Positions 1-63,867 of a stretch of 64,000 nt of DNA are shown one piece after another. The notes under the pieces were generated by a model that was given only the letters and a program-made list of their open reading frames with translations, was not told the origin of the DNA and ran no database searches. This DNA is from Sulfurospirillum diekertiae. GTDB lineage: Bacteria > Campylobacterota > Campylobacteria > Campylobacterales > Sulfurospirillaceae. The DNA is taken from positions 62,001 to 126,000 of the forward strand of contig NZ_CP021416.1 of NCBI RefSeq assembly GCF_002162315.1, written 5' to 3'. Positions within the stretch are counted from its first letter, which is position 1; each line of letters starts with the position of its first letter. The position numbers were made by a program, and so were the translations under genes.

Positions 1-1257
1 GATCAAAAGCAGTTTCAATCTTTAGGTGCTGGCAATATGTTTTCGCAGCTTCAAAAGCAAAGTGATATTCATATCGTCGAAATGACAGAAAATAAGCGTG
101 CGCAAACCGAATTGATGCGATCGCTTTATTCGTCTATCAAGAGCAAGGATTTAGAAGAGGCGTTCGGCATTTTAGAAAAGCATCAACGACTTCATGAAAC
201 GACAGATCTCGAGAAGATAAAAAACGAATACCTCAAAGATCGTCATGATACGTTGCTTCTTGTTGATACGAACGCAAATCGTAGAGCTTTAAACGAGTTA
301 ATCCGATCAGATCTCGTCGCTCAAAATGAAGTAACACAGTCTCAACCGTTATCTATCAAAGAGGCAATCAATCTAAACGAGATTGAAAAACACTACTCGA
401 GCAATTATCAAGTAGGTCAAATTGTTGTCGCACAAAACGCGTTTCAAGGATTTAGTGCCGGGCAAGAAGCAATGATCACCGCGATTGATCATCCATCCAA
501 TACGATCACGGTTACCAAAGATGAGCAAAGGATCAAAATTGATCTAAGCAAAGCTCACGCTCAAGCGATTCAAACCTTTGCTATTAAAGAAAAAGCGTTT
601 GGTATCGGCGACAAAATTGTTTTTACAAAAAACAATCGAAACCTCAAGTTTAGAAATGGTGAGACTGCTGTGATCCAAGCAATTCATGGGAATATCATCA
701 AAGTACAAAAGGGGAATAAAGAGTTGGCGTTTGATGCTTCCAAATATCCTTATATCGATCATGGATACGTGATTACAGCGCATAAAAGCCAAGGGCAAAC
801 AACCAGTAAGGTTATCGCTTTCACGAATGCCCAAATGGCCAATTTAAACCGCTTCTACGTGCAAATTACCAGGGCAAAACGTGATGCCTTAATCTATACC
901 AACAGCATAGCAACACTCAAGGAGAATACACAAAAAACACAAATTAAAACAAGTACCCTAGATTATTTTAGGTCGGCAATGCAGCATGAGGCACATACAA
1001 ATCATAACTACGAAAGGACATTCAATGAGCAAAAAGAACGAAGAATATCAAGAGGATCAACTCTTTCAATACTGGGAGACTATTGCACAAAGTGCAAAAT
1101 TGCACTCGCAGATCTTAGCCGACATCTTGGCTTATTTAAAAGAGATCGATCAGAGGCTTCAAGCACTCGAGGCAAAGATCAAATGAAAAATATCTTACTT
1201 AAAAATGAGCGCGAAAAAGCAGCTCAATCCATAACACAATCACGAGAAAGGAGATAG
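1..1257 (+). CDS. Conjugative relaxase/helicase (MobF/TraA type), C-terminal part
   Basis: The reading frame is open at base 1, so the N-terminal relaxase domain lies outside the window. What remains is the end of an SF1 helicase of the kind fused to MobF relaxases. The window opens in a GAGNMFSQLQ stretch that matches the region just after motif III. A motif V-like TAHKSQGQT is encoded near 772-805 and a motif VI-like YVQITRAKRDAL near 857-893. Such proteins nick transferred DNA at oriT and unwind it during conjugation. The last 75 residues are low in similarity to anything I know and overlap a better-looking small gene at 1025-1186, so the functional C-terminus may lie near base 1030. A coupling protein follows 2 bases after the stop, which fits a transfer operon. 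Confidence 0.8.
   Translation, partial: DQKQFQSLGAGNMFSQLQKQSDIHIVEMTENKRAQTELMRSLYSSIKSKDLEEAFGILEKHQRLHETTDLEKIKNEYLKDRHDTLLLVDTNANRRALNELIRSDLVAQNEVTQSQPLSIKEAINLNEIEKHYSSNYQVGQIVVAQNAFQGFSAGQEAMITAIDHPSNTITVTKDEQRIKIDLSKAHAQAIQTFAIKEKAFGIGDKIVFTKNNRNLKFRNGETAVIQAIHGNIIKVQKGNKELAFDASKYPYIDHGYVITAHKSQGQTTSKVIAFTNAQMANLNRFYVQITRAKRDALIYTNSIATLKENTQKTQIKTSTLDYFRSAMQHEAHTNHNYERTFNEQKERRISRGSTLSILGDYCTKCKIALADLSRHLGLFKRDRSEASSTRGKDQMKNILLKNEREKAAQSITQSRERR
1025..1186 (+). CDS. Small coiled-coil protein overlapping the helicase gene
   Basis: This 53-residue reading frame lies wholly inside the 3' end of the helicase gene, in another frame. Its ATG follows AAAGGA with a 6-base gap, a strong ribosome binding site. 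The product is acidic to neutral with a heptad-like C-terminal half (LADILAYLKEIDQRLQALEA), typical of a short coiled coil. In the same stretch the helicase frame reads like an antisense of composition (clusters of Ser, Arg, Cys), so this frame may be the one under selection. Its stop overlaps an ATG of the helicase frame (ATGA at 1183-1186). Function unknown; an accessory to the transfer machinery is a guess from position. Confidence 0.5.
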   Translation: MSKKNEEYQEDQLFQYWETIAQSAKLHSQILADILAYLKEIDQRLQALEAKIK

Positions 1258-48140: not shown

Positions 48141-48167
48141 AGCCAAGAAGTTATCTTCTTGGCTTTT
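48141..48167 (+). terminator. Terminator of rpsU
   Basis: AGCCAAGAAG and CTTCTTGGCT pair perfectly around TTAT and are followed by TTT and more pyrimidines, a classic intrinsic terminator 7 bases after the stop. Confidence 0.9.
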
Positions 48168-48266
48168 CTTCTTGTCCTTCAAAACAATTTCCTCAAACTA
48201 AACTAAACTAAGCTGTGATAACATAAGAACAAATATATTTCTCTTCGTTAGCAAAGGGTCATCAAG

Positions 48267-48980
48267 ATGGATAAAAAACTAACTGTTATTGAGGCAGCAA
48301 AGCTTTTAGGCGTGAGCAAAGAGGCTATCTACAATCGTTTGCGACGTGGTTCCTTGCAAAGTATTATTGAAAATGGTGTCAAGTACATTTTACTAACAAA
48401 AAGTAGTCTAAAGGAAGGTCCATCGATCCGCAAAATAGACAATATGGCAGAGAATGCTTATGTTGAGCTTCTCAAAGTACAACTTGAAGAGATGAAACTT
48501 AAAAATGAAAAACTTGAGGCGGATAAAGAGCGTCTCATCGCCGATAAAGAACGTTTGTTGATTGAATCAAAAGAAAAAATCGAAATGATCTATAAAGAGA
48601 GAGATGAGCAACTTAAAGCGATTCTGACTTTAGCCAATCGACAAATTACACACACAGGGAATGAAGCATCTACTAACACACCTACGACTATCGTTCCTTC
48701 TAGTGCTACCACAGCTTCACAAACACCTTTTTCATTTGAAGAAGCAGACGTTTTAGATGAAGATGAAGAGAATAGGGTCGTGGAAGATATGTTTGAGTCT
48801 TATAGTGATTGGAGAGATTTGAGAAGTTATCTCAAAGAAAAAGGATTTTCCAAAAAAGAAAAACAACATATCAGTGATAAAATTGGTAAAAAGATAGGTC
48901 AACTGAATGATGTTATGGATAAAAATGGCAAACTTTTTATCAAAAAGGGTAAAAAACTTAAAGAAATTCTAGGAGAGTAA
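48267..48980 (+). CDS. HTH DNA-binding protein with coiled coil
   Basis: A 237-residue protein with an N-terminal MerR/excisionase-like helix-turn-helix (LTVIEAAKLLGVSKEAIYNRLRRGSL, residues 5-30), a long coiled coil (about residues 66-125, with two near copies of EADKERLIADKERL), a Thr/Ser-rich linker and a charged C-terminal domain ending in KKGKKLKEILGE. The layout is that of a dimeric nucleoid or regulatory protein. No symbol known to me. It precedes the UPF0323 lipoprotein gene by 6 bases. Confidence 0.72.
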   Translation: MDKKLTVIEAAKLLGVSKEAIYNRLRRGSLQSIIENGVKYILLTKSSLKEGPSIRKIDNMAENAYVELLKVQLEEMKLKNEKLEADKERLIADKERLLIESKEKIEMIYKERDEQLKAILTLANRQITHTGNEASTNTPTTIVPSSATTASQTPFSFEEADVLDEDEENRVVEDMFESYSDWRDLRSYLKEKGFSKKEKQHISDKIGKKIGQLNDVMDKNGKLFIKKGKKLKEILGE

Positions 48981-48986
48981 AAATCG

Positions 48987-49616
48987 TGCAGTATATCCGT
49001 AAAATTTCAGATTATATGATCGCAGGAGGCATTGGTGTAATGGTTCTTGTAAGTATGCAAGGCTGTGATCAAAAAGATGAGAATAAAAAATGCTCTTGCA
49101 GATGCAGCAAAAACACAAGGAGCACTTGTCATTGTTGATGAAAGCGCTACAGGAGAGTATAAAATAGCCGAAGAGTATCCAAGTTCAACCACACGTGTTA
49201 TTGTTCGAAAACCTGATGGAAGCGAGCGGATTTTATCACAAGCTGAAATAGATGCTTTAGTCAAAGAAGAGGCAAAAAAAATTGATAACAACACATCTCC
49301 TCTGACCAATTCAAATATGAGTTCAGGACAAATGGGATTGGGCGGCATTCTACTCTCAAGTATTGCTGGAGGTATGATTGGTAGTTGGATAGGTGGAAAG
49401 CTTTTTAATAACCCAACATATCAAAATCAAAGAGCAACCAATTATTCAAGTCCGCAAGCTTATTCTCGTAGTACAACTAGTTTTAACAAACCAATGTCCA
49501 CCTCTAGCACAAGCAGTACAACGAAAAGCAGTGGCTTTTTTGGCTCAAGTTCTGGAAGTGGTAGCTCATCTAGTGGTACTTCAAGTTCAAGCGTACCTTC
49601 AAGTTCAGGAAGTTAA
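48987..49616 (+). pseudogene. UPF0323 family lipoprotein, frame broken at an A-run
   Basis: The N-terminal part from GTG 48987 reads MQYIRKISDYMIAGGIGVM and a lipobox-like VSMQGC, the signal of a UPF0323 lipoprotein known in Campylobacter and Helicobacter. After A6 (49085-49090) the frame stops; with one A fewer it continues as [19 protein letters not shown] and through [23 protein letters not shown], a Gly-rich membrane-like segment [14 protein letters not shown]-type and a Ser/Thr/Gly-rich tail, ending at 49616. The full product is about 209 residues, of unknown function. The stop overlaps the next start by TAATG. This is another +1 homopolymer event. Confidence 0.8.
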
Positions 49617-50800
49617 TGATGTTACATGTAGAAAAAATAAAACCGTTAAGTAAGGAATTTTTGGAGTCAATTGGTTTTTATTGGCATACGGATACGGATC
49701 AAACATCGTATGTTGCCGATGAGTTAGTGCTTGTCTGTAATGATGAAGTTGAAGCCTATTATGAGGCAGCCAATGAGCTTTATGATATGTTTGCTGATGC
49801 TGGGCAATATGTGATTGACAATAATCTATTTCATGAATTAAATATTCCATTCAATTTAGTTGATCTGATCAAAAACTCATGGGCAAATGACGTACATTGG
49901 CATCTCTATGGCCGGTTTGATTTTGCAGGTGGCGTTGATGGTAAGCCGATTAAACTGATCGAATTTAATGCAGATACCCCAACATCGTTGTATGAAACGG
50001 CCATTATTCAATGGGCAATGCTTAAAGCCAATGGTATGAATGAAGCGAAGCAGTTCAATACTGTTTTTGAAGCACTCAAAGAGAATTTCAAACGTCTTGT
50101 GGTACTTGATGGCAATACAGAAGATTTTGCTGCCTCTTATGAGGGATGGAAGATTCTCTTTTCTTCAATTCGTGGTAATATCGAAGATGAAAACACGACA
50201 CGTTTTCTTCAATCTGCTGCTAATGAGGCAGGCTTTCATACAGATTTTGCCTATGTCGATGAGGTTCAATTTAGTGGAAAAGAAGGTATTTTTAAAGGGG
50301 AAGAAAATTTCGAATTTTGGTTCAAACTTATTCCTTGGGAAAATATTGCAATAGAAGAGGGTGACTTGGCACTTCTTTTAGACGAGATGGTCAAAGAGCA
50401 ACGCGCAATTATCATTAATCCTGCTTATACATTACTGTTTCAAAGTAAAGCTTTTATGAAAATTTTATGGGATCTTTTCCCCAATCATCCATTGCTCCTT
50501 GAAACTTCCTATGAACCGCTTACAGGTAAAAAGCAAGTTGAAAAAAGAGCCTTTGGACGAGAAGGTGCTAACACGATTATTTACGATACAGATATGTCTG
50601 TTATGGCAAAAGTTGAGGGTGATTATGGTAATTTTAAACCAATCTATCAAGAGTATGTGGAACTTCCAAAAGACGTTGAAGGGAAATCTTATCAAGCGGG
50701 TGTTTTCTTCGCGTATGAGGGTTGCGGACTAGGCTTTCGAAGAGGAGGGCTCATTATGGAGAACTTCTCAAAATTTGTTGGGCATAGAATAAAGGACTAA
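49616..50800 (+). CDS. Glutathionylspermidine synthase-like ATP-grasp protein
   Basis: A 394-residue member of the GSP_synth ATP-grasp family: YGRFDFAGGVDGKPIKLIEFNADTPTSLYE is the diagnostic block, with IINPAYTLLFQSKAFMKILW and a C-terminal GCGLGFRRGG. Stand-alone synthetase homologues like YgiC lack the amidase domain and have an uncertain substrate; peptide-amine ligation is likely. TTACATGTAG lies at its third codon. It forms a run with the dehydrogenase and yajQ genes, as in Campylobacter. Confidence 0.85.
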   Translation: MMLHVEKIKPLSKEFLESIGFYWHTDTDQTSYVADELVLVCNDEVEAYYEAANELYDMFADAGQYVIDNNLFHELNIPFNLVDLIKNSWANDVHWHLYGRFDFAGGVDGKPIKLIEFNADTPTSLYETAIIQWAMLKANGMNEAKQFNTVFEALKENFKRLVVLDGNTEDFAASYEGWKILFSSIRGNIEDENTTRFLQSAANEAGFHTDFAYVDEVQFSGKEGIFKGEENFEFWFKLIPWENIAIEEGDLALLLDEMVKEQRAIIINPAYTLLFQSKAFMKILWDLFPNHPLLLETSYEPLTGKKQVEKRAFGREGANTIIYDTDMSVMAKVEGDYGNFKPIYQEYVELPKDVEGKSYQAGVFFAYEGCGLGFRRGGLIMENFSKFVGHRIKD

Positions 50801-50803
50801 GTA

Positions 50804-51736
50804 ATGAAGATTGTTTTTTTAGATGCTACAACGATGGGAAATGATATTGATTTAGAGCTATTTCAACAATTTGGGATAATTGAGGCATTTGAGACGACAA
50901 CTGTGTCTGAGCGTGTTGAACATATTAGCGATGCTAAAATTATTCTGACCAACAAAGTTGTTATTGATAAAGAAGTGATGGATGCTTGCCCTAATTTAGG
51001 GTTGATTTGTATCACAGCTACAGGGACGAATAACGTTGATTTGGAGTATGCTAAAGAGAAGGGTATTGTTGTTAAAAACGTTGCTGGCTATTCAACTGCA
51101 TCGGTAGCGCAAACTACGATGATGTTGGTTCTAAACCTCTTGGGTCAATGCGGCTACTATAACCAATTTGTCAAATCAGGGCAATGGACAAAAACCTCTA
51201 TTTTTACCCATTTAGATCGCTCTTTTTGGGAGATTAAAGGGAAGCGTTGGGGCATTGTTGGGTTAGGAACAATCGGTAAAGAGGTCGCAAAAATTGCTTC
51301 TGCATTTGGCGCAAATGTAGTGTATTTTTCAACCAGTGGCACTAACAATGATAGTAATTATGAACGTGTTAGTCTTGAAGTAATGATGCAAACATGTGAT
51401 GTGATTTCCATCCATGCACCACTAAATGACAAAACAAAAAATTTGATTGCCAAAGAGCAATTCAATCAAATGAAAAAAAGTGCTATTCTTGTCAATGTTG
51501 GACGGGGAGGTATCATTAACGAAGATGATTTACGTGAAGTGATTGATACCAAAGAGATTTATGTAGGGCTTGACGTATTGGCAGTTGAGCCGATGATAGA
51601 GCATCATCCACTTTTACATGTAAAGCATCCTGAACGCTTAATTATTACACCCCATATTGCGTGGGGGAGCATTGAAGCTAGGCGTGAACTGATGCGACAA
51701 GTTGGCGAAAATATCAAAGAATATCTAAGACACTAA
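50804..51736 (+). CDS. D-isomer-specific 2-hydroxyacid dehydrogenase
   Basis: A 310-residue NAD-dependent dehydrogenase: Rossmann GIVGLGTIGKEVAKIA, the catalytic Arg in LVNVGRGGIINE, Glu in GLDVLAVEP and His in TPHIAWGS. Substrate may be glycerate, lactate or phenylpyruvate; not decidable here. Three bases after the preceding gene. TTTACATGTAAA at 51613-51624 reads Leu-His-Val. Confidence 0.9.
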   Translation: MKIVFLDATTMGNDIDLELFQQFGIIEAFETTTVSERVEHISDAKIILTNKVVIDKEVMDACPNLGLICITATGTNNVDLEYAKEKGIVVKNVAGYSTASVAQTTMMLVLNLLGQCGYYNQFVKSGQWTKTSIFTHLDRSFWEIKGKRWGIVGLGTIGKEVAKIASAFGANVVYFSTSGTNNDSNYERVSLEVMMQTCDVISIHAPLNDKTKNLIAKEQFNQMKKSAILVNVGRGGIINEDDLREVIDTKEIYVGLDVLAVEPMIEHHPLLHVKHPERLIITPHIAWGSIEARRELMRQVGENIKEYLRH

Positions 51737-51745
51737 GGAGAATAT

Positions 51746-52246
51746 ATGGCAGCAAAAGAGCATAGTTTTGATATCACAGCAGAGATTGATAAGCAAAAGT
51801 TTAAAGACGCGTATGAGCAAGCGAAAAAGGTTATCACGAATCGATGGGATTTTAAAGGCATTACGTGTGAGTTTGAACACAATGAAAAAGCCAAGACAGT
51901 GACACTTATCACAACCACGGATACGAAAGCTGATGCAATGGTTGAAGCACTCATTTCAGAGGCTATCAAACGTGAGATCTCTTCGAAAGCACTCAAAGAG
52001 ACGAAACGTGAAGTTGCCGGCGGCAATAAAACCAAAGTAACGGTGAGTATTGTCGATGCAATTTCTGGCGATGATGCTAAAAAGATTGTTAAAGAGATTA
52101 AAGAGCTCAAACTTAAAGTCCAAGCTTCGATTCGTGGCGATGTTGTCAGAGTTGAAGGCAAAGCAATTGATGATTTGCAAGAAGCTATTAAAGCGATTCG
52201 TGGGTGCGATTTTGATTTCCCTGTAAATTTTACTAACCTCAAGTAA
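51746..52246 (+). CDS. YajQ family nucleotide-binding protein
   Basis: A 166-residue protein of the YajQ/UPF0234 family with EHSFDITAEIDKQKFKDAYEQAKK and VTVSIVDAISGDDAKKIVKEIK. Some members bind cyclic di-GMP and act as cofactors of transcription regulators. Length is standard and AAGGAG precedes the ATG. It follows the dehydrogenase by 9 bases. Confidence 0.93.
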   Translation: MAAKEHSFDITAEIDKQKFKDAYEQAKKVITNRWDFKGITCEFEHNEKAKTVTLITTTDTKADAMVEALISEAIKREISSKALKETKREVAGGNKTKVTVSIVDAISGDDAKKIVKEIKELKLKVQASIRGDVVRVEGKAIDDLQEAIKAIRGCDFDFPVNFTNLK

Positions 52247-52249
52247 CCT

Positions 52250-52555
52250 ATGGAACAAGAAGTCCCTCCTATTATTGAGATTATTCCCAAAATAAAAGGG
52301 TTTTGGTGTCGCGTAGTGATGTTTAGCCTTTATGGTCTGTTAACATTTACTCCATTTCTTGTGGGTAGTTGGTTAGGCTATTCCTATAATATCGTAATAG
52401 GAATAGCCTTTTTCCTTTTTTTAACCTTGGTAAGTGGTGTCATAAGTTCAAAAATGCGTGTTTGTTCAATTCCTTTTGAACAGCGAGAAATGAGTTATTC
52501 AACAATGGCAATCGTGAAATGGTATCTCGCAAAAAACATTTGTTTAAAAAACTAA
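52250..52555 (+). CDS. Small two-helix membrane protein, hypothetical
   Basis: A 101-residue protein with two hydrophobic segments at about residues 22-42 and 48-66 and charged ends. It lies 3 bases after yajQ, so it is probably co-transcribed, and before eptA. Ends with NICLKN. I do not recognise a family. Confidence 0.65.
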   Translation: MEQEVPPIIEIIPKIKGFWCRVVMFSLYGLLTFTPFLVGSWLGYSYNIVIGIAFFLFLTLVSGVISSKMRVCSIPFEQREMSYSTMAIVKWYLAKNICLKN

Positions 52556-52596
52556 ACTATACTTTACATGTAAAACCAACTATCAAGAGAAAATAA

Positions 52597-54186
52597 ATGA
52601 AATTTAAAATGACCCGCAATCAGCTTATCGTTGTTGTAGCACTTTTTTTAGTGTTTTTTGACAATATTTCTTTTTTTAAACATGTTACGCAAGTCTATGA
52701 TGTATCCATTGCCAATAGTGGCTTTTTACTCTCTTTAGGCGTTGTATTAGTTGCTAGTATAACAGTCTTGCTGAGTTTATTCGCTTCACGTTATACTCTA
52801 AAACCACTCGCAATAGCATTTTTATTGCTTGCCTCGTTAACAAATTATTTTATGAATACTTACAACGTCATTCTTGATGATACAATGATCCAAAATGCCA
52901 TGGAAACCAATGCCAATGAGTCATTGGATCTTGTAAACTGGAATCTTTTAGGGTATTTCTTTTTCTTGGGTATTATTCCTTCATTTTTAATTTATCGTGT
53001 ACCTATCCTTCATGGAAGTTTCAAACAAGAGGCTTGGAATAAGGCAAAAAGTATTGGTATTGCTCTTGTTTTGATTGCAGTGATGCTATTTGCTTTTAAT
53101 CGTTTTTACACCTCATTTTTTAGAGAAAATAAACCTTTACGTTACTATACTAATCCAACGTATTGCCTTTACTCTGCAGGAAGTTATATATATAATAGCT
53201 TTTATAAGAAAGAAGCAACATTAAAACAAATTGGCCTAGATGCAACAAAAGAAGAGGGTGGAACTCGTAAATTGACTATTGTCGTTGTGGGTGAAGCGGC
53301 TCGTGCCAATCGCTTTTCACTAAATGGTTATGAAAGACAGACCAATCCTTTACTGCAAAAAGAGGATATTATTAATTTCTCAAATGTCTATTCTTGTGGA
53401 ACATCGACTGCTATCTCCGTACCATGTATGTTTTCTAATTTAGGACGCCAAAACTATAGTGATAAAGAAGCGAAGTCAACTGAAAATGTTATCGATGTAC
53501 TTAAACATAGCGGTGTCAATGTATTGTGGAGAGACAATAATTCTGATTCCAAAGGCGTTGCTTTACGGGTAGAGTATCACGATTATAAAATAAGTCAAAA
53601 CAATACACTGTGTGAAGATGAATGTCGTGATGAGGGAATGTTAGTAGGGTTACAAAAATATGTTGATGCACAAAAAGGTGATATTGTTATCGTCCTTCAT
53701 CAGATGGGTAATCATGGTCCAGCGTATTATAAACGCTATCCGAAAGCATTTGAAAAATTTACCCCAGTATGCCAAACCAATCAGGTCGAAAAATGCAGTG
53801 CTGAAGAGATCGGAAACGCATATGATAATGCTATTTTATATACGGATTATTTTCTCTCTAAAACCATTGCTTTTTTAAAACAGAATGACCAAAATTTCCA
53901 AACGTCAATGATTTATATGGCAGACCATGGAGAATCTTTGGGTGAAAAAGGGCTCTATTTGCATGGGATTCCTTATTTTATGGCTCCCGAAGAACAGACA
54001 CATATAGGGGCATTGATGTGGTTTGGTTCTCAAAGCAAGGAACGCATTGATGTAGTATCTCTCACGCAAAGATCATCACAAGAATACTCACATGACAATC
54101 TTTTTCATACAATTTTAGGTGTGATGGGGGTTAAAACAGCACTCTATGATCGTACAAAAGATATACTAACCTACAAACATCAATAA
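52597..54186 (+). CDS. Phosphoethanolamine transferase (EptA/EptC type)
   Basis: A 529-residue inner membrane enzyme that moves phosphoethanolamine onto lipid A, core sugars or flagella. Five N-terminal membrane helices end near residue 175; the periplasmic alkaline phosphatase-like domain has VVVGEAARANRFSLNGY, the Thr-bearing block SCGTSTAISVPCM near residues 267-279, and ADHGESLGEKGLYLHG for metal binding. Such changes give polymyxin resistance in Campylobacter. dgkA, which recycles the diacylglycerol by-product, follows by 9 bases, a functional pair. Confidence 0.93.
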   Translation: MKFKMTRNQLIVVVALFLVFFDNISFFKHVTQVYDVSIANSGFLLSLGVVLVASITVLLSLFASRYTLKPLAIAFLLLASLTNYFMNTYNVILDDTMIQNAMETNANESLDLVNWNLLGYFFFLGIIPSFLIYRVPILHGSFKQEAWNKAKSIGIALVLIAVMLFAFNRFYTSFFRENKPLRYYTNPTYCLYSAGSYIYNSFYKKEATLKQIGLDATKEEGGTRKLTIVVVGEAARANRFSLNGYERQTNPLLQKEDIINFSNVYSCGTSTAISVPCMFSNLGRQNYSDKEAKSTENVIDVLKHSGVNVLWRDNNSDSKGVALRVEYHDYKISQNNTLCEDECRDEGMLVGLQKYVDAQKGDIVIVLHQMGNHGPAYYKRYPKAFEKFTPVCQTNQVEKCSAEEIGNAYDNAILYTDYFLSKTIAFLKQNDQNFQTSMIYMADHGESLGEKGLYLHGIPYFMAPEEQTHIGALMWFGSQSKERIDVVSLTQRSSQEYSHDNLFHTILGVMGVKTALYDRTKDILTYKHQ

Positions 54187-54195
54187 AGGCTTAGC

Positions 54196-54558
54196 GTGAG
54201 AAACCAACCGAAATATCATTTTTTTAAAAATACAACCTATGCGCTCAAGGGTTTAAAAGATATGATCGCTAATGAGACTTCATTTAAAATAGAGCTGGGG
54301 CTTGTAGTGATTTTACTTCCTGTTCTATATCTGCTCCCTTTGGATCTTTTGTATAAACTCGTGATGTTTATAGCGCTTATGGGCATTCCTATGGCAGAAG
54401 CGATTAACAGTGCAATAGAACGTGTGACAGACCTTGTAACGCTTGAGTATCATGAAATGGCGGGGCGTGCAAAAGATGCAGGCAGTTCTGTTGTCTTTTT
54501 AAGTATCGTTATTTTTGTAGTTGTGTGGGGATTTTCACTTATTCACTTTTACATGTAA
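54196..54558 (+). CDS. dgkA: Diacylglycerol kinase
   Basis: DgkA phosphorylates diacylglycerol released by EptA and by periplasmic glucan synthesis. The 120 residues have three membrane helices and EAINSAIERVTDLV with the family motif. GTG start at 54196. The stop codon is part of TTTACATGTAAA. Convergent with the membrane protein gene at 54606. Confidence 0.93.
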   Translation: MRNQPKYHFFKNTTYALKGLKDMIANETSFKIELGLVVILLPVLYLLPLDLLYKLVMFIALMGIPMAEAINSAIERVTDLVTLEYHEMAGRAKDAGSSVVFLSIVIFVVVWGFSLIHFYM

Positions 54559-54561
54559 AGA

Positions 54562-54586
54562 TGCAAGGCTAAACTTTAGCCTTGCA
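54562..54586. terminator. Bidirectional terminator between dgkA and the convergent gene
   Basis: TGCAAGGCTAAA and its exact complement are separated by one base, giving a 25-base near-palindrome just after dgkA and 20 bases before the end of the opposing gene. Confidence 0.75.
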
Positions 54587-54605
54587 AATAGCGATAAATA
54601 GCCAC

Positions 54606-55796
54606 CTAGAGCGTATTTTTAAAGACAACGACAAGTCCCCATGTAATGAAAACTAATGCCCAAATAATCATAATACCAACCGTCGTATTAGCCAGTTTTG
54701 TCACAGTACCATCTGCGGTATAAAGACCTTTGGTGCGTCCTGCTCTCCATGCTAAGGTGAGCATAAATCCAACACCTGTAAATCCAACACAGACAAAGGT
54801 AGAGAGGAACATAATAACCGTTGGCCAGTCGATGTTCATTGGATAATCGTAGATGCTGTAACCGTATTTGCTCATGATGTTCATACGAATTACTTCACGG
54901 AGTGTTGAAATCAAAAGTGCTGTGACCACTAAAACAATGGTTGTAATGTAGCTATTGCTCTCTTTGATGACCATGAAAAGTAAAATAAGCACAAAAAGCA
55001 CAATGGCAAGTACCAATGGATGGAGAAGCATATTGAGTGTGAGTACCCAAACGGCAAAAAGAACGGCACTAACGAGCAATCCTACGATGGCTATTTTTTT
55101 ACCAAGGTTTTTCACAAATGCGAGATACTCCGCGGTATACCCATCGCATTTTGAGGTGTAATCTACATAGTTAAGTAAAAAGATACCTGTAACGGGCGCG
55201 CTAAGACTGACCATAAAGGCCAATCGTAAAAGATCAATGTGTAAAACCGTTCCTGATGTATCGATCACACCATTGGGTGCGTACCAGTTCATCCATTGTT
55301 CAGGTTGAATGGATTCGTTAGCAAACGCGTGCATTAAGACACCTGCTCCGATGAAAGCAACAAAAGAGACGATGCCTATGATTCCTGCCATAGGAGAGTT
55401 GCTTCTATTGGCATAATAGAACCAATACCAAAGAGAGTATGCTAACACAAGAATATAGATGAAAGCAACGACCCAAAGCCCAGAAATGGTATTTGTGACA
55501 TACCAGTTAGCATCGTAAATAACTTGCGTGAATAAAAGAGGTGCAACCCCTAAAACAATCAGTAAAGAGACACTAATTTTTGCCACTTGTGTCATATGAC
55601 TGCTCAACTTTTTCCAGTTCTCATCAATCGCTTTTTTAGCAGAACCTATCAATGCAAGGGGTATACTTCCTAATGCTAAAAGAACAAAAGCAATATGCAA
55701 TGCCCATGTTAAAATATACAATGCTTGAAATACAATAGGGTAAAATGGTACGCCAGCAGGATCGCGTAGCGTGTTTAAAACAAGACCGATATCCAT
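54606..55796 (-). CDS. Multi-helix membrane partner of the CydA-like cytochrome
   Basis: A 396-residue protein with about nine membrane helices. ALHIAFVLLALGS near the N-terminus carries a His in a helix, and GVAPLLFTQVIYDANWYVTN and TLREVIRMN are further charged or polar intramembrane stretches, resembling a divergent CydA-like or CydB-like subunit. The ATG 55796 follows AGGAGG by 6 bases; an earlier ATG would extend into the upstream gene. It lies 10 bases after the CydA-like cytochrome c gene, so both probably form one complex. I cannot place it in a named family with certainty. Confidence 0.65.
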   Translation of the reverse strand: MDIGLVLNTLRDPAGVPFYPIVFQALYILTWALHIAFVLLALGSIPLALIGSAKKAIDENWKKLSSHMTQVAKISVSLLIVLGVAPLLFTQVIYDANWYVTNTISGLWVVAFIYILVLAYSLWYWFYYANRSNSPMAGIIGIVSFVAFIGAGVLMHAFANESIQPEQWMNWYAPNGVIDTSGTVLHIDLLRLAFMVSLSAPVTGIFLLNYVDYTSKCDGYTAEYLAFVKNLGKKIAIVGLLVSAVLFAVWVLTLNMLLHPLVLAIVLFVLILLFMVIKESNSYITTIVLVVTALLISTLREVIRMNIMSKYGYSIYDYPMNIDWPTVIMFLSTFVCVGFTGVGFMLTLAWRAGRTKGLYTADGTVTKLANTTVGIMIIWALVFITWGLVVVFKNTL

Positions 55797-55806
55797 AGTT
55801 TTCCTC

Positions 55807-57144
55807 CTATTTATTTTGCGTAGCAAGCCAAGCTGCTAGCGCTTTTGTTTCATCAGCTGGTAGTTTAATCGGTGGGATATAACTACGAACTCCTGCCGCT
55901 ACAACATCTGTCAATATGGTCTCAATGGTATCCGCATCCATTTCTGGGAACCTATCTGGCAATGGTCTAAACTTAGCTCCTTTTTCCAAAGAGTGGCAGT
56001 TTGAGCAGGCAATTTTAGCAATGAGCTTTCCTGCTTCAAGTTGATTTTCAGGCGTAATGGTTCTAAGATGATCTGGAATGAATGGGTCTAGTTGTAATAA
56101 ACCTTTTTCTGCTACAAGTGCCATTTCAGATTTGACATGTTTGCCAGGAACATCGCGTGCAATCAGCTGATTACTATAGATGTAACGACCTGCAACATAA
56201 GGTTTACGCATACTTTCACGCATTTTTTCACCCGGCCAAACACCAATAATACCGATGACAAGCATCATTACGACGGCTAAAACGGTATTGATGGAGCGAG
56301 GAAGCACAAAAGCTAACAGCAGATAAAGTGCAATAACACTGACCACAATAATACGAGTCATGCCATCGCTTGCCCATAAAACATCGTGGAAAAGATCCCA
56401 TGCACTTTGAGGCAATGTTTGGATATACCATAAAAAAGACATCATCACTGTGAGTCCGCCAATCATACCAATAACAGCTAGTTTACGGGTTAGTTCAATT
56501 CTAAGTTCTTTCTCTTTAAGACTGCTACTAATGATGAAGCCAATAATGGCTGACATAACAATCATAAAACCGATACGTAAGAACATATGAGGGAAGGTAT
56601 TGATACCAAAGAATGCATCACTGGCTGAGCCTGTTTGATACCATGCTTCGGTTCCTGGCCACATCATAAAGCTGATGATACCGATAATAAGGAAAAGCGT
56701 TGAAACAGAAGCCAACGCGAACATATAGGTAAGTTTAAGATGCGTTTTGCGATCAATTTTCCCAATAGTGTAAATCAGTGTAAAGACACCAATGACCTCC
56801 ACAATAAAGAAAACCCATTCTGTTGCCCATACCCAAACAAAGTTATGAATCAGCGCACTAATACCTCTTGGGCTTGCCGCTGTGGCAGTGTACCAAATAC
56901 CAGGTCCTGTAATAGAGCCAATGACATAGGAAAAAATAATCAAGAACATACCATATTTCTTCATATAGTCATACAATTCTGGTCTATCTTCCTTGTACGC
57001 CTTGTGTGCTAAAAAAGCAAACAATAAAGCCGCACCCACAGACGTATGTGACGCCATAATGTGAATACTGCCCGTAATTCCCATCAGCCAAGCTGAACCA
57101 ATTTGCGGAAAATAGAATAGAGGATATAATCCAATGTATTCCAC
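55807..57144 (-). CDS. CydA-like membrane protein with C-terminal haem c domain
   Basis: A 445-residue protein. The N-terminal 320 residues have about eight membrane helices with CydA-type features: a His in GSIHIMASHTSVGA, and HNFVWVWATEWVFFIVEVIG with two Glu seven residues apart, like the E99/E107 pair of cytochrome bd. The C-terminal 100 residues are a periplasmic cytochrome c with CSNCHS (haem site CxxCH) and later methionines. It is therefore a bd-superfamily relative that takes or gives electrons through cytochrome c rather than quinol. Its partner gene is at 54606. Strong AAGGAGGTG before the ATG. Whether it reduces oxygen is unknown. Confidence 0.72.
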   Translation of the reverse strand: MEYIGLYPLFYFPQIGSAWLMGITGSIHIMASHTSVGAALLFAFLAHKAYKEDRPELYDYMKKYGMFLIIFSYVIGSITGPGIWYTATAASPRGISALIHNFVWVWATEWVFFIVEVIGVFTLIYTIGKIDRKTHLKLTYMFALASVSTLFLIIGIISFMMWPGTEAWYQTGSASDAFFGINTFPHMFLRIGFMIVMSAIIGFIISSSLKEKELRIELTRKLAVIGMIGGLTVMMSFLWYIQTLPQSAWDLFHDVLWASDGMTRIIVVSVIALYLLLAFVLPRSINTVLAVVMMLVIGIIGVWPGEKMRESMRKPYVAGRYIYSNQLIARDVPGKHVKSEMALVAEKGLLQLDPFIPDHLRTITPENQLEAGKLIAKIACSNCHSLEKGAKFRPLPDRFPEMDADTIETILTDVVAAGVRSYIPPIKLPADETKALAAWLATQNK

Positions 57145-57165
57145 CTAACACCTCCTTAAGATTTT

Positions 57166-57265
57166 AAAAATGGTTTGCGAAAGCAGAGTCTCTTAATACG
57201 TACTATTTTTGTGACATAATGTTGCACCAAGAGGGGAGGTGTCTCTGCCTTTGCAAACCATTTTT
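57166..57265. repeat. Long inverted repeat (23-base arms, 54-base loop)
   Basis: Arms starting AAAAATGGTTTGC and their complement end the 100-base unit; one difference is a G-T pair. On the minus strand the repeat ends just before the AAGGAGG of the CydA-like gene, so it may form a hairpin in its leader. On the plus strand it ends in TTTTT like a terminator. Confidence 0.6.
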
Positions 57266-57366
57266 GATCATTACATGTAAGAATGTGCTTATGGTTAACG
57301 CAGAAAAAAGCTTAGTATTTAAGCCTTGTTTGAGTAGAATTTTTTTGCGTTGCAACAAGCACGTTG

Positions 57367-57407
57367 TGTTTACCCGATGTAGGTTTGGCGATCAACTCGG
57401 GTAAACA
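57367..57407. repeat. 11-base perfect inverted repeat
   Basis: TGTTTACCCGA and TCGGGTAAACA flank 19 bases. Possible RNA hairpin or regulator site in the CydA-like upstream region. Confidence 0.5.
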
Positions 57408-57561
57408 GCACTTCAAAACTAAAAATTTCCTTGTGTAAAACAATGACATATCAGTGTTAATTTAATGTTAAATTTAGAGATAGTGAAAAAGAATGGAAAA
57501 ATGAAGAAGCTTGTAATATATTGTTGGTTTGATGTTTGTTTTGTTTGAAATATAGCAGTGG

Positions 57562-57594
57562 CTATAAGAGGAGAGAGGTTCTCTCCCCTTATAG
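57562..57594 (-). terminator. Hairpin after the cytochrome c553 gene
   Basis: CTATAAG/CTTATAG and GGAGAGA/TCTCTCC pair with one mismatch between them, directly after the stop at 57596. No T-run follows on the minus strand, so termination efficiency is uncertain. Confidence 0.6.
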
Positions 57595-57595
57595 A

Positions 57596-57892
57596 TTATT
57601 TGATTGAAGAGATATAAGTAGCGAGTGCTTTTACATCATCAGCACTAAGATTTTTGACTTGAGCAGTCATTGTACCTTTTAATACACCACCGTATGTACC
57701 TGCTTTGTAACCGTCAAGAGCTGCTGTAATTTTAGCTGCATCCCAACCTGCAATGATTTGTGATTTGTTCAATGCTGATTTTTCTGCTTTTGCCCCATGA
57801 CAGGTTGCACAGGTTTTAAAAAGGGTTTCACCATCTGCTGCAAAAATAGAAGTAGCACATACAAGACCTGCTAAAAACAATACCTTTTTCAT
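57596..57892 (-). CDS. Periplasmic cytochrome c553
   Basis: A 98-residue monohaem cytochrome with signal peptide MKKVLFLAGLVCATSIFA, haem site CATCH at about residues 28-32 and a distal Met in LKGTMTAQ. This type carries electrons to cbb3 oxidase in Campylobacterota. It has its own AAGGAG and a 70-base gap to the preceding cytochrome-like gene, with a terminator hairpin after. Confidence 0.92.
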   Translation of the reverse strand: MKKVLFLAGLVCATSIFAADGETLFKTCATCHGAKAEKSALNKSQIIAGWDAAKITAALDGYKAGTYGGVLKGTMTAQVKNLSADDVKALATYISSIK

Positions 57893-57964
57893 CGTAACTC
57901 CTTATGTAAATAATAGGATAATTATATAGATTAAAAGTGAATTTATTGTGAAATAAAAAAGTAA

Positions 57965-58300
57965 TTATTTTAATTTATTAAAAACTTTGTATTGCTCCCA
58001 ATATGTATCAAGTGCTTCTTGGAGCTCTGTGTCAGTTAGTGTTGTTTTTTTCTTCACTCCAAAGCGGTTAATCAGTCCATCCACTAAGATAGAATTTTCT
58101 GCTTTTGGATTTTTAAGATACTGACTCATGGCATGTTTAACTTCCATCTCACTACTGTATTTGAGAAGGTAGCGGTAGAAAAATTTATCAATTTTTATAG
58201 CCATGTCTTCATGGCAGGGAATACAATTCTTCTCATATACACCTGTCTTTGCCCAGATAAAAGAGGCTATAATCATTAAAATAAGAACTTTTTTTACCAT
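57965..58300 (-). CDS. Small cytochrome c-like protein
   Basis: A 111-residue exported protein with signal peptide MVKKVLILMIIASFIWA and haem site CIPCH near residue 27; the rest is helical and charged with no clear distal Met motif. It overlaps the histidine kinase stop by 7 bases, so it is the last gene of the two-component operon. It may be a redox sensor input or the regulated product; both are guesses. Confidence 0.75.
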   Translation of the reverse strand: MVKKVLILMIIASFIWAKTGVYEKNCIPCHEDMAIKIDKFFYRYLLKYSSEMEVKHAMSQYLKNPKAENSILVDGLINRFGVKKKTTLTDTELQEALDTYWEQYKVFNKLK

Positions 58301-59481
58301 GCAATCCTCACTGTTGTTCCCTCGTGTAGTTGAGAGTCTATGCTTACATGTAAAGTATATTCTTTGGCGATGGCTGCTACGATACTAAGTCCTATGCCAA
58401 AACCTCCAACTGTACGATCAAACCTCACGTAGCGTTCAAAGGCTTGATTGATTTTTTTGGTTTCGATGCCTCTTCCACTATCACTAATCTCAATATATTC
58501 AGGTGTCAAAAGTACATGAATCGTTCCACCAATTTTATTATACTTGATAGCATTCGAGAGAATATTATCAATCAGTTTGGCAATTTTCTTACGATCTATC
58601 ATCAAAAAAACATTTTCTTCAAGCGTAGATGTTAGCGTAAGTTTTTTTGATTCAATCAGAAGTGAAAAATACTCCAGTCGCTCTTCAATAATAACTTTAA
58701 GATTGACCTTTTCATCATGAGAAATGATATGATGAGAAAGCACTAAATAGGTAAGATCATCATAGAGATTTGAGATAGTTTTAGATGCAATGGTAATGCG
58801 TTTTATTTTTTTTACTAAACTCTCGTCCAAGGTTGCAAGCTCAATCATTTCAATATTAGAGAGAATTGTATTGACAGGCGTGTTGAGTTCATGGGTTGTG
58901 TCTTTAATGAAGCGATCTAAGAGCGTAATAGTATCTCTCATCGGGCGTAGAAGAAGACCCAGTAAAAAATAACCAATAACAATCAAAATACCAAAAATGA
59001 TGGCACCATATGTCAAAAGCTTACGGAAAACTTTTTTCTCCCATGAAAGTGGTGCATCGATTTCAATCACAATATACCGAGCACCCAAATAGTAAGATTC
59101 TAACTCTTTAACAAAGTAGATATGATTTTTTTTGAGGTAAATATCTTCGTAAAGGTTGACTTTATTGGTACTCAATGTTGAAAAAATTTGTTTAAGACTA
59201 CTATCGTAAATGGCAGAATTGAAACGTTCATCTCTTGGATATATTTGCTCTTTTCCAAGGTTTACATGTAAAGATTTGAGACGCACAATTTGCTCATTAG
59301 CAAGGGTAGAAAGAGCTTCTCTTTGATTTTGAAGCATCAAATCACGTTCCAAACCATAGTATAAAAAAGCTACAAATCCTAAAATAAGCAGTGCTAAAAA
59401 GGCGTAGAGAACTAAAAACGATCGAAGCGTTTTCTTCTCACGCGAGCGTAAATTTATATCCCAGTTTTTTAATGCTAACAA
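58294..59481 (-). CDS. Sensor histidine kinase
   Basis: A kinase of about 396 residues. Two membrane helices (about residues 20-42 and 150-172) enclose a periplasmic sensor of about 105 residues. The phospho-acceptor is in HELNTPVNTILSNIEM, with ILSNAIKYN (N box), ISDSGRGIE (G1) and GGFGIGLSIV (G2). TTG 59481 with AAGGA six bases before it is the most likely start; an ATG at 59541 would overlap the regulator gene by over 100 bases. TTACATGTAA occurs twice in the gene, reading Leu-His-Val. Confidence 0.9.
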   Translation of the reverse strand: MLALKNWDINLRSREKKTLRSFLVLYAFLALLILGFVAFLYYGLERDLMLQNQREALSTLANEQIVRLKSLHVNLGKEQIYPRDERFNSAIYDSSLKQIFSTLSTNKVNLYEDIYLKKNHIYFVKELESYYLGARYIVIEIDAPLSWEKKVFRKLLTYGAIIFGILIVIGYFLLGLLLRPMRDTITLLDRFIKDTTHELNTPVNTILSNIEMIELATLDESLVKKIKRITIASKTISNLYDDLTYLVLSHHIISHDEKVNLKVIIEERLEYFSLLIESKKLTLTSTLEENVFLMIDRKKIAKLIDNILSNAIKYNKIGGTIHVLLTPEYIEISDSGRGIETKKINQAFERYVRFDRTVGGFGIGLSIVAAIAKEYTLHVSIDSQLHEGTTVRIAW

Positions 59482-60112
59482 TACGATCCTTCCCCATAAT
59501 TTTACGAAGATTTTTGATGTAAGTACGCAAAGTATCGTCACTACCTTGTTCGTCGTATTCCCACAAATGTGTCATAATCATCTCGTGACTGATAATTTCA
59601 TTTTTCTTTTGTAAAAAGAGTTTGAGTAGTTTTGCCTCTTTATTTTGGAGTTGTGCTGCTTTTTGATTGACTAACAGTTGGTTACTCAGGGGGTCATACT
59701 CAATACCTTCATCAATGCAAATTTTAGGACTTTGAGTATGAAAGAACTCACGTTTTAAAATGGTTTCGATACGAAAGAGAAGCTCTTTAAGTGCAAACGG
59801 TTTGCGTAGATAATCATCACAACCACTCTCATAACCATGTTCTAAGTCTTCAATAGCATTCAGGGATGTCAAAAAAATGGCAGGGGTTGTATTGTTCTCG
59901 TGGCGAATGCGTTTGAGGAGTTCAAATCCATTTAAAGAAGGAACATTGACATCAAGTAAAAAGAGGTCATATTGATGCTCGTATATAAGCTCTTCTGCGG
60001 CTTCACCGTCATATACAGGAGTAACATGATAGCCTTTAGACTCTAAAAACTCACAGACTGTTTCGCTAAGATTGATGTCATCTTCCAAAAGAAGGAGTCT
60101 AGTTTTGGGCAT
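59438..60112 (-). CDS. OmpR-family response regulator
   Basis: A receiver domain (RLLLLEDDINLSETV, phospho-acceptor Asp in FLLDVNVPS, Lys in RKPFALKE) and a winged-helix DNA-binding domain (LLKLFLQKKNEIISHEMIMTHLW, then TYIKNLRKIMG). ATG 60112 (MPKTRLLLLEDD) was chosen; it overlaps the DUF1104 gene end by 14 bases. Cognate kinase is next. Targets are not visible; the cytochromes and the Mla genes of the same operon are candidates. Confidence 0.92.
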   Translation of the reverse strand: MPKTRLLLLEDDINLSETVCEFLESKGYHVTPVYDGEAAEELIYEHQYDLFLLDVNVPSLNGFELLKRIRHENNTTPAIFLTSLNAIEDLEHGYESGCDDYLRKPFALKELLFRIETILKREFFHTQSPKICIDEGIEYDPLSNQLLVNQKAAQLQNKEAKLLKLFLQKKNEIISHEMIMTHLWEYDEQGSDDTLRTYIKNLRKIMGKDRIVSIKKLGYKFTLA

Positions 60113-60326
60113 TGTCTCTTCTTTTTTTATCCTCTTCATAGAGTGCTTTTTCTTCTTCACTCATGGTTGGTACACGTTTGTCAAGTTCTTGGTAAAAATG
60201 CTCTTCTGCCTTTTGATCGACATACCCAATAAGCGCTATCAGCTCTTCGGTACTCATTTCACTAAAATCGGTTTTAGCAAACAACAAGCTCATAAGAATT
60301 AAACAGCAGAAGAGCGCTTTTTTCAT
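60099..60326 (-). CDS. DUF1104 family exported protein
   Basis: A 75-residue protein with signal peptide MKKALFCCLILMSLLFA and the family stretch FSEMSTEELIALIGYV followed by a charged helix. DUF1104 proteins are confined to Campylobacterota; function unknown. It lies between the lipoprotein gene (3-base gap) and the response regulator (overlap), so it may feed the two-component system from the periplasm. Confidence 0.8.
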   Translation of the reverse strand: MKKALFCCLILMSLLFAKTDFSEMSTEELIALIGYVDQKAEEHFYQELDKRVPTMSEEEKALYEEDKKRRDNAQN

Positions 60327-60329
60327 TGT

Positions 60330-60926
60330 TTATTTCCGAAGTTCATTGATCCAGATAGAGAGGCTTTTAATCACATCTTCTGTTGCTGCATTAAATGCTT
60401 CTACTGCACCTTCTGCGCCATGGGTATTGGTGACATCTTTTTTTGAAGAAAGTTTAGTACTGCCTAACACTTCACCTGTTTTGATTTCAACAAGACGAAA
60501 GCGTATGCTTACATGTACATAGGATGTCCCATCTTCACGAAAAACCTCTTCAAAATTTTGAATAACTGGTTCTAAGACCAAGTTATTAGATGCCATAGAC
60601 GTTCCTGAAATGACAGATCCAAAATGGTGTTGGTCTTGTAATGCCTCCGTGATGAGGTATTGAAGTTTTAAAGGAGGTGTTTCGCTCCATGCGCCGTATT
60701 TATAAGGCAACATTGCACCCTCTTTTTTATACACAATGGCTCTAGAATTAAGACCACTGGGCGCGTCAACATAAGCAATTTTGAGTACATCCTGATTGGC
60801 AACACTAAATCGCTCTAATTTCATCATAGGCTCAAGGGTGTAGTTGTAGGGTCTTTGCGACGCTTCTTTGATGCTACAACCGCTAAGAAGCATGAGTGTG
60901 GTAAGCGCTAGAAGTACGTTTTTCAT
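60330..60926 (-). CDS. ABC-type transport auxiliary lipoprotein of the Mla system
   Basis: A 198-residue lipoprotein with signal and lipobox MKNVLLALTTLMLLSGC and a PqiC/DUF330-like periplasmic domain (NSRAIVYKKEGAMLPYKYGAWSE, IQNFEEVFREDG). It likely anchors the MCE protein to the outer membrane. ATG 60926 follows AAGGAAATAAG; the frame extends upstream but overlaps mlaD. Separated by 10 bases from mlaD. Confidence 0.87.
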   Translation of the reverse strand: MKNVLLALTTLMLLSGCSIKEASQRPYNYTLEPMMKLERFSVANQDVLKIAYVDAPSGLNSRAIVYKKEGAMLPYKYGAWSETPPLKLQYLITEALQDQHHFGSVISGTSMASNNLVLEPVIQNFEEVFREDGTSYVHVSIRFRLVEIKTGEVLGSTKLSSKKDVTNTHGAEGAVEAFNAATEDVIKSLSIWINELRK

Positions 60927-60936
60927 CTTATTTCCT

Positions 60937-61890
60937 TTATCGTTCATTAGGTGCTGGTTGGATGGTCTCTTCTTTAAAGAGAAGATCGCTTGGACTGTCT
61001 TTGAGATTACTGACAAGATCTTTCGTTTCATTAACCAACACTTGTAAATCTTGAAGCGTTCTTTGAAGTGGCATTAAATTCTCTTTGAGCAAAATATCAA
61101 CATCAAAGGAGCCTTTTTCGACTTTTTGGTTTAAACTACCCATGACAGTTTTAACACTTTGTGCAGAATCTCGTACATTATTCATCATATCAATCCCTGT
61201 ATTATCAACTGCAGAAGAGAGGGAGTATGACATGTTCTTAATCCCAGTCGCAGCATTTGTCGCTTCTTTGAGTAACAGATTGATCTCTTTATTTTGGGCT
61301 TCAATATTTGCCATGGTTTTGCTAGTTGACTCAGCTATCTTGGCACTATTGGCAATAATGATTTCAAGGTTTTTGACATTTTTTTCGCTCATGATACTTT
61401 CTGCTCGCTCAAAAATCATTTCCGCTTTTGCACTTAGCGATGTAATCGTTTTATCAAGTCGTGAAAAAGTAGATGGGCGTGAATAGATGATGCCGTATTC
61501 TTCATCTTTATTACTTGTTTTAAGGTTTTTTGCTTCATTGGTTCCTCCTTGTAACTGGATATAACTAAGTCCAGTAATACCTTGTGCCTCAATCACGGCA
61601 TACGTATCTTCTTTGATAGGAGCATTATCTTGAACACGTACAGTCACTAAAACTTCTTCAGCATTATACGGATTGATGGTAATACCTCGTACTTCACCGA
61701 TCTGCACACCTTGAAGTTTAACGGGCGCTTTTTCATTTAAGCCAGAAACAGACTCTTTGGTGGTTATTTTGTAAAATTTGAAGTTTCCTTTATCGGAGTA
61801 ATTACCGAGCCAAAGAATGGAGAAAACACCTCCAATAAGTAATACAAAGATAAATGCGCCTACTAAAATATAACTTAACTTATTTTCCAT
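60937..61890 (-). CDS. mlaD: MlaD-type MCE domain protein
   Basis: A 317-residue periplasmic substrate-binding protein anchored by one helix (ILVGAFIFVLLIGGVFSILWLG). The MCE domain follows (SGLNEKAPVKLQGVQIGEVRGI, GITGLSYIQLQGG), then a long helical C-terminus that can form a tube. Together with MlaE and MlaF it moves phospholipids between the membranes. Longer than E. coli MlaD (183), as in Campylobacterota. Confidence 0.9.
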   Translation of the reverse strand: MENKLSYILVGAFIFVLLIGGVFSILWLGNYSDKGNFKFYKITTKESVSGLNEKAPVKLQGVQIGEVRGITINPYNAEEVLVTVRVQDNAPIKEDTYAVIEAQGITGLSYIQLQGGTNEAKNLKTSNKDEEYGIIYSRPSTFSRLDKTITSLSAKAEMIFERAESIMSEKNVKNLEIIIANSAKIAESTSKTMANIEAQNKEINLLLKEATNAATGIKNMSYSLSSAVDNTGIDMMNNVRDSAQSVKTVMGSLNQKVEKGSFDVDILLKENLMPLQRTLQDLQVLVNETKDLVSNLKDSPSDLLFKEETIQPAPNER

Positions 61891-61897
61891 CTCAGCC

Positions 61898-62632
61898 TCA
61901 ACTTAAAAATTTTTTCAACTCTTCATCGGTTGTTTGCTTTAAAAGCTCCATAGTTCCTTCAAATTGTACTTTTTTATTTCCTAAAATAATAAAACGATCC
62001 AGTACATTTGCCATTGTATCTTTATCATGGGTTACCATCACAACAGTAACACCAAGTGTATCTCGTAAGGTAACGATGAGTTCATCAAAGGCTCTTGCAC
62101 TTTGAGGATCCAGTCCCGACGTTGGTTCATCTAAAAAAAGTAGCTTCGGGTCAAGTGCAAGGGAACGGGCTAGACCTGCTCTTTTTTTCATACCGCCACT
62201 GAGCTCGGAAGGATACATCGTTGCAACTTTGGGAGGAAGACCTACTATTGAGAGTTTCATTAACGAAGCTTCTTCGATGAGCCAATCGGGAACCTGCGTA
62301 TACTCTTTCATAGCAATGGCTACATTTTCTAAAATAGTAAGAGAGGTAAAAAGAGCGCCAAATTGAAAAAGAACACCCCATCGTTGCCTCAATTTTTGAG
62401 CTGTTTTTTGAGAAGCAGTTAGAACATTTGTTCCTAGGACAATCATCTCTCCAGAATGCGCTTTTTGAAGCATGATCATCTCTCGAAGGAGCGTTGTTTT
62501 ACCACTACCACTGCCACCCAAAAGTCCAAAAATCTCTCCTTTTTGGATTTTAAAACTAACACCATCATGAATAACATTGTCTCCAAAAGATGTGACAATC
62601 TCTTTTGCTTCGATGATCACAGGAGTTTTCAT
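61898..62632 (-). CDS. mlaF: Phospholipid ABC transporter ATPase
   Basis: A 244-residue ABC ATPase: Walker A GGSGSGKTT, signature LSGGMKKRAGLARSLA, Walker B LLFLDEPTSGLDP. The start at 62632 (MKTPVIIEA) overlaps the mlaE stop by ATGA; the longer frame would intrude into mlaE. It ends 7 bases before mlaD. Confidence 0.93.
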   Translation of the reverse strand: MKTPVIIEAKEIVTSFGDNVIHDGVSFKIQKGEIFGLLGGSGSGKTTLLREMIMLQKAHSGEMIVLGTNVLTASQKTAQKLRQRWGVLFQFGALFTSLTILENVAIAMKEYTQVPDWLIEEASLMKLSIVGLPPKVATMYPSELSGGMKKRAGLARSLALDPKLLFLDEPTSGLDPQSARAFDELIVTLRDTLGVTVVMVTHDKDTMANVLDRFIILGNKKVQFEGTMELLKQTTDEELKKFLS

Positions 62633-63759: not shown

Positions 63760-63839
63760 TACACCACCCTATTTTTTTGTTCCATTATAACATAATTATA
63801 TTACTCAAAATGACATAGAAAGGTTTTAGATCAGGATGT

Positions 63840-63845: not shown

Positions 63846-63867
63846 CATTGAAAAAAGGAGACTTAAC

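Follow-up and report, generated by a model that had tools for sequence, protein, structure and literature searches.

What does a CydA-like membrane protein do when it ends in a haem c domain and is accompanied by a second multi-helix subunit in the place of CydB? This question is raised by two adjacent genes, referred to here as A and B, in a 64,000-nucleotide stretch of Sulfurospirillum diekertiae DNA that is called the window (Table 1). A preliminary description of the locus had favoured cytochrome c over quinol as redox partner and had left the substrate open among oxygen, nitric oxide and others. The analysis presented here leads to the proposal that A-B is probably a bd-type cytochrome c:oxygen oxidoreductase that needs no copper ("cytochrome cbd") and is used when copper is low. 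The proposal builds on predicted fold, residue conservation, gene pairing and genomic context, from which we infer its activity, its haem content, the role of B and the copper response of the window copy.

Table 1. Features of the A-B locus and of neighbouring genes, in window positions.
Feature	Position	Strand	Basis or remark
Subunit B, 396 aa with the ATG start or 406 aa with the TTG start at 55826; CydA-type paralogue	54606..55796	-	
B H34	55695-55697	-	Kept; alignment with A
B E301	54894-54896	-	Kept; alignment with A
Subunit A, CydA-like membrane protein with C-terminal haem c fusion, 445 aa	55807..57144	-	
Membrane-embedded part of A (residues 1-345) with 8 predicted TM helices; Q-loop absent	56110..57144	-	AF2 helices, loop charges
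A H28, counterpart of CydA His19 (haem ligand)	57061..57063	-	71/71 conserved; structural alignment with 6rx4_A starts 11<->2
A E109 to E116, counterpart of CydA Glu99/Glu107	56797..56820	-	71/71 conserved
A motif E306-x-x-R309-E310-x-x-R313-K314	56203..56229	-	Alignment; model 327 <-> 6rx4_A 462
A haem c domain, periplasmic, residues 366-445	55810..56049	-	Pfam and model; CSNCH at 55993-56007
A I423, where the distal haem-c Met usually stands	55876..55878	-	Met in 66/71 aligned sequences
Candidate electron donor, a small cytochrome c with one haem (98 aa)	57596..57892	-	In relatives, such genes are over-represented near A-B
Small CIPCH protein, 111 aa, without confident family	57965..58300	-	
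Sensor histidine kinase, candidate regulator	58294..59541	-	
OmpR-type response regulator, candidate regulator	59438..60160	-	

Subunit A combines a predicted CydA fold with a periplasmic haem c

The fusion of a CydA-like protein to a cytochrome c, recognised in the preliminary description, was borne out by domain searches and by structure prediction. Pfam placed Cyt_bd_oxida_I on residues 18-234 (E = 1.6e-5; 24.1 bits, just below the cut-off of 26.2) and Cytochrome_CBB3 on residues 367-439, and the AlphaFold model (mean pLDDT 81.3) found its best matches among CydA structures, superposing on Escherichia coli CydA (6rx4_A) with Z 28.4 and an rmsd of 3.2 over 312 aligned residues. Profile comparison of A with canonical CydA gave weak scores (E = 0.016-0.021). 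The start codon is GTG, with a clear AGGAGGT upstream.

The two-Glu motif and the helix His noted earlier belong to a larger set of residues that are invariant in all 71 aligned sequences, namely H28, H100, E109, E116, R190, E306, R309, E310, R313, K314, P315 and the CxxCH motif (C380-C383-H384). The Glu pair is spaced by 7 positions, compared with 8 in CydA. Most of these residues also hold in an Agrobacterium relative (27%) and in one from Thermus, which shares 33% identity with the A of Hydrogenophaga; H28, E109 and CxxCH are kept down to 27% identity, and E116 is replaced by Asp in Thermus. If the end of the model-based alignment is ungapped, E310 and R313 would match Glu445 and Arg448 of CydA. 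H186, which may correspond to one of the haem b558 ligands of CydA (His186/Met393), is conserved in 64 of the 71 sequences and is Gln in the other seven.

Neither TM9 nor a Q-loop was found in A by inspection of the AlphaFold model and loop analysis, and the loop between TM6 and TM7 has about 4 residues, against well over 100 in the canonical CydA of the same genome. The predicted cytoplasmic loops are richer in Lys and Arg, and the haem c follows the eighth helix; these loop charges, together with the eight helices that precede the haem c, place it on the periplasmic side. A CydA fold that has lost the Q-loop and gained a periplasmic C-terminal haem c supports the earlier view that cytochrome c, rather than quinol, is the partner.

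Subunit B is a probable CydA paralogue

The second subunit had been described as something other than a normal CydB, and this held: the best reading of B is that of another CydA paralogue (CydA'), leaving the pair with no recognisable CydB. Among the bd entries listed, the best structural chain for the B model (mean pLDDT 89.4) is CydA (6rx4_A; Z 25.5, rmsd 3.7, 331 aligned). Profile matches of B are weak, with a lean towards CydA (E 0.03) over CydB (E 0.14), and a Pfam search of B returned no match. H34 and E301 of B (71/71 each) and R304 (70/71) align with H28, E310 and R313 of A, and no counterpart of the Glu pair was found in B in the 71-row alignment with A. Direct comparison of the A and B profiles gave E = 5.5e-6 (probability 85.7) from 42-row alignments and E = 0.0052 (probability 6.9) from 71-row alignments; because these scores vary with the alignment, the kinship of A and B rests on fold and motifs.

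B follows A on the same strand. The listed open reading frame of B has 406 aa and a TTG start, and an ATG at 55796 is preceded by its own AGGAGG 6-7 bases upstream, so that the two genes probably do not overlap and lie 10 bp apart. The two genes stand side by side in 79 of 80 loci, and the remaining locus, L072, stops at a contig end, which argues that the pairing is not due to chance.

Relation to known bd-type enzymes

The quinol oxidase CydAB shares with A the CydA fold and the residues of the O2 site. A-B differs from it in having no Q-loop, no TM9 and no recognisable CydB, and in the added haem c. Archaeal CydAA' resembles A-B in that two superfamily paralogues replace CydA and CydB; it uses quinol and is not known to carry haem c. 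Members of the OR-C family carry haem c, and A-B, judged by architecture, probably belongs to the OR-C clade. The OR-C and OR-N families (Murali et al., 2021, as described in PMC8509429, PMC10839748 and PMC12342949) share with A-B a bd core without a quinol site and with cytochrome c as likely donor, and a CydA-CydA' pairing, the arrangement favoured here for A-B, has been proposed for OR-N. Published accounts divide the superfamily into three families and ascribe the quinol site to one alone (PMC8509429; PMC10839748), and an account from 2021 called all bd members characterised by then quinol oxidases (PMC8509429). Cable bacteria have CydAh, a homologue of CydA that likewise carries a cytochrome c domain in the periplasm and for which O2 reduction is proposed (PMC13047784).

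In Methylococcus capsulatus Bath, MCA1187 is reported to be upregulated 28.3-fold, and its neighbour MCA1185 13.8-fold, when copper is withheld; the MCA1187 protein was present in the inner membrane only without copper, and cytochrome c oxidases that do not depend on copper were postulated there under the name "cytochrome cbd" (PMC4831470). As published, cytochrome cbd (MCA1187/MCA1186/MCA1185) has, like A, eight TM helices and a C-terminal haem c, no Q-loop and no TM9, and MCA1187 keeps the His19 and Glu counterparts, a likeness that rests on the published description (PMC4831470). Further points of likeness are a third protein, proposed for the complex, and a neighbouring cytochrome c (PMC4831470); MCA1185 is a di-haem c4, whereas the cytochrome c near A-B in the window is mono-haem.

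Because its architecture matches cytochrome cbd and is probably that of OR-C, A-B represents a kind of enzyme that is already known. In the literature searched, which left Murali et al. (2021) and most subscription journals outside, the name "cytochrome cbd" was met only in PMC4831470, no paper was found that links CruR to a bd-like cytochrome c enzyme, and no cytochrome c-linked bd enzyme had a shown activity or job. Nor did that literature describe B as CydA', a CruR or methanobactin setting for these genes, or the loss of the haem-c Met.

Distribution, phylogeny and the window locus

Relatives were collected in a single scan of species genomes with peptide patterns of the window's A (100 found, 80 kept), a design by which distant members are missed. 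The window's A is 97% identical to an S. diekertiae copy. The 80 loci comprise 48 from the Campylobacterota group and 32 from elsewhere (Pseudomonadota, Verrucomicrobiota and Aquificota). Within a sample of 150 Campylobacterota genomes, A was found in 10, one copy being distant (E = 5e-63). This distant relative (464 aa; genome G116, contig 1, 664432-665808) comes from another Campylobacterota genus and perhaps represents another subfamily. A haem-copper oxidase family protein accompanied A in all 10 carriers, so A-B is never the sole oxidase in that sample. The genome of the window itself encodes cytochrome b (PF00033) proteins, one haem-copper oxidase family protein and one canonical CydA.

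The tree was built from 71 A sequences, to which those of Methylosinus, Thermus and Agrobacterium were added. Of the 80 loci, nine are absent from it, their A having been missed or cut by the ORF step. The window's A belongs to a five-member clade (support 100/100), the sister group of all other Campylobacterota sequences, whereas the copies from S. cavolei and S. arcachonense branch from within other parts of the tree. The window copy (48144-64000) and that of S. cavolei have the same gene neighbourhood in spite of their different clades, which suggests replacement or sorting of A-B copies. Ile at the distal haem-c position is confined to the window's clade of five (with L003, L004, L005 and L046). 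With the distal Met lost, the haem c of this branch may be five-coordinate or otherwise bound, and Ile423 could alter or impair electron entry.

Upstream of A, on the same strand, lie the genes for the monohaem cytochrome c, the CIPCH protein, the kinase and the OmpR-type regulator. The CIPCH gene beside A-B is confined to Sulfurospirillum-type loci. Against the heavy-metal models TIGR01387 and TIGR01386, the two-component system scored 125.2 and 69.2 bits, under the cut-offs of 279.2 and 292.55. A conserved functional island in Campylobacterota was rejected, neighbours being mixed apart from response regulators and cytochromes c, and PCuAC and DUF2946 were absent from the 25 most frequent neighbour families of the Campylobacterota loci. 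Large genes beside A-B in S. cavolei (L031) and in L005 had been considered as TonB receptors; the Pfam tally identifies them as two malate synthases.

Copper-related context in relatives

Evidence for a link to copper is drawn from relatives that share about 56% identity or less. In the 480 bp that follow B, a CxxCH frame is present in 24 of the 32 non-Campylobacterota loci (two of the eight misses are contig ends) and in 3 of 47 Campylobacterota loci; small monohaem cytochromes c make up 24 of 333 called ORFs near A-B, compared with 2 of 378 far from it. Among 103 neighbour ORFs scanned, 15 matched Cytochrom_C, 7 matched DUF2946, which is the CruR family, and 4 matched PCuAC.

CruR is a copper-responsive upstream ORF with CxxC and a C-terminal RAPP 45 residues apart (to within 1-2); the genes downstream are made without copper, and transcription stops when copper is present (PMC9426467). 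CruR-type ORFs were defined here as small same-strand ORFs upstream of A with CxxC-45..47-R[A/G]PP that end 2-7 residues later. Such an ORF heads the operon in 11 of the 32 non-Campylobacterota loci, 111-480 bp before A, and occurs in 1 of 366 control windows, the sole positive (L059) being a DUF2946 gene itself, beside PCuAC. The 11 loci belong to eight genera of Alpha- and Betaproteobacteria and are thus not fully independent. Because none of 47 Campylobacterota loci has a CruR-type ORF, we infer the copper role of the window's copy from its relatives. The direction of the copper response at A-B is likewise drawn by analogy, since CutF, a CruR-related protein, works in the opposite sense (PMC9973294).

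PCuAC lies directly upstream of A in two Bordetella-labelled contigs (L060 and L062) and also near A in L054, and MbnP and MbnH stand beside A-B in Alcanivorax (L063). Together with L060, L062 and L063, the 11 loci headed by a CruR-type ORF bring those with a copper marker to 14 of 32. On a Methylosinus plasmid, A, B and the cytochrome c gene adjoin mbnF, mbnM, mbnC, mbnB and mbnA of a methanobactin cluster. Bordetella illustrates the logic of such an enzyme: its CydAB, which contains no copper, is essential when copper is low (PMC12914433).

Proposed function and alternatives

In the proposed mechanism, a soluble cytochrome c would reduce the haem c at A's periplasmic end. This haem would in turn feed electrons to a haem pair, ligated by H28 and E310 near the periplasmic face of A, and there O2 would be reduced. 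Protons from the cytoplasm would reach this site past E116/E109. B would occupy the place of CydB as a scaffold and perhaps as carrier of a relay haem. Cells could thereby go on oxidising their cytochrome c pool at low copper, when haem-copper oxidases cannot be built, for example in sulfidic water or inside copper-hungry methanotrophs. Sulfide that keeps copper scarce is a plausible reason for A-B in sulfur-cycling Campylobacterota.

A mainly protective role, in which A-B would scavenge oxygen, nitric oxide or peroxide at the membrane and copper scarcity would be one trigger among several, is unlikely. Canonical bd oxidases have such roles (PMC10839748), and the varied contexts of A-B, including two-component systems, zinc genes and dehydrogenases, would suit it; however, copper markers far exceed the control rate, the window's own genome has just one haem-copper family protein, and carriers of A show no enrichment of nosZ (PF18764; 2 of 10 carriers versus 39 of 140 non-carriers). 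The same counts leave the tie to nitrogen-oxide respiration, raised in the preliminary description, unsupported, and the once open choice of substrate is narrowed to favour O2.

It is rather improbable that A-B serves copper acquisition or oxidase assembly, for instance as a haem-based membrane reductase that would act on cupric or ferric ions via cytochrome c. CruR operons consist mostly of copper import and assembly genes, including one for a PepSY_TM protein that supports haem-copper oxidase function, and PCuAC, TonB receptors and MbnP/MbnH occur beside A-B in some relatives. Such a role would not, however, account for the kept counterparts of the CydA O2 site (the Glu pair and Glu445) alongside the loss of quinol-site features, or for Aquificota and Campylobacterota copies that have no copper-uptake neighbours. 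That A-B moves electrons in reverse or sideways, for example as a cytochrome c:quinone module without catalysis, is very improbable: some bd relatives may not reduce oxygen, as had been pointed out at the start, and the haem c of the window's branch is altered, but A has no Q-loop and its O2-site residues are conserved.

Building on the copper-free oxidase as the preferred reading, a broader one can be put forward tentatively. Two CydA paralogues would together make up a widespread cytochrome c oxidase without copper, and this would form a respiratory branch for copper scarcity, which Alpha- and Betaproteobacteria would switch by a copper-sensing arrest peptide heading its own operon; the Methylosinus copy would travel with methanobactin genes, and in one Sulfurospirillum branch the distal Met would have been lost and the haem c thereby retuned, so that the entry haem would be five-coordinate or re-ligated. 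If true, this would explain how bc1-based respiration is kept going in sulfidic or copper-poor habitats, and the CruR-type ORF and methanobactin context would give a poorly understood bd family a testable job.

Observations at individual loci

Zinc-type genes, which include CobW, occur at two loci: ZigA and Zur-like genes lie beside A-B in Thiomicrorhabdus (L070, 4864-12589), and a Zn/Mn-type ABC binding protein is encoded beside A-B on a Thermus plasmid (L117, 5036-10081). These neighbours weaken a copper-only account.

Several candidate assignments were rejected. The RAPP-bearing ORF ahead of A in L066 lacks CxxC and is not included among the CruR-type ORFs. Genes in L052 and L054 considered as SCO are both DJ-1/PfpI. 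TonB receptors could not be assigned as copper receptors, only that of L070, among those scanned, matching TIGR01778, with 129.5 bits against a cut-off of 472.45.

In Paraburkholderia tropica (L067, 4642-9958), A, B and the cytochrome c gene follow what appear by eye to be GMC oxidoreductase and gluconate dehydrogenase subunit genes. An Agrobacterium plasmid (L118, 6300-9573) carries a distant A/B pair together with a DUF1775 (YcnI) fragment. The Methylosinus plasmid (L119) has two more CruR-like ORFs on the minus strand (11490-12125 and 16660-17547; spacing 51 and 48), both just upstream of TonB receptors by the methanobactin cluster.
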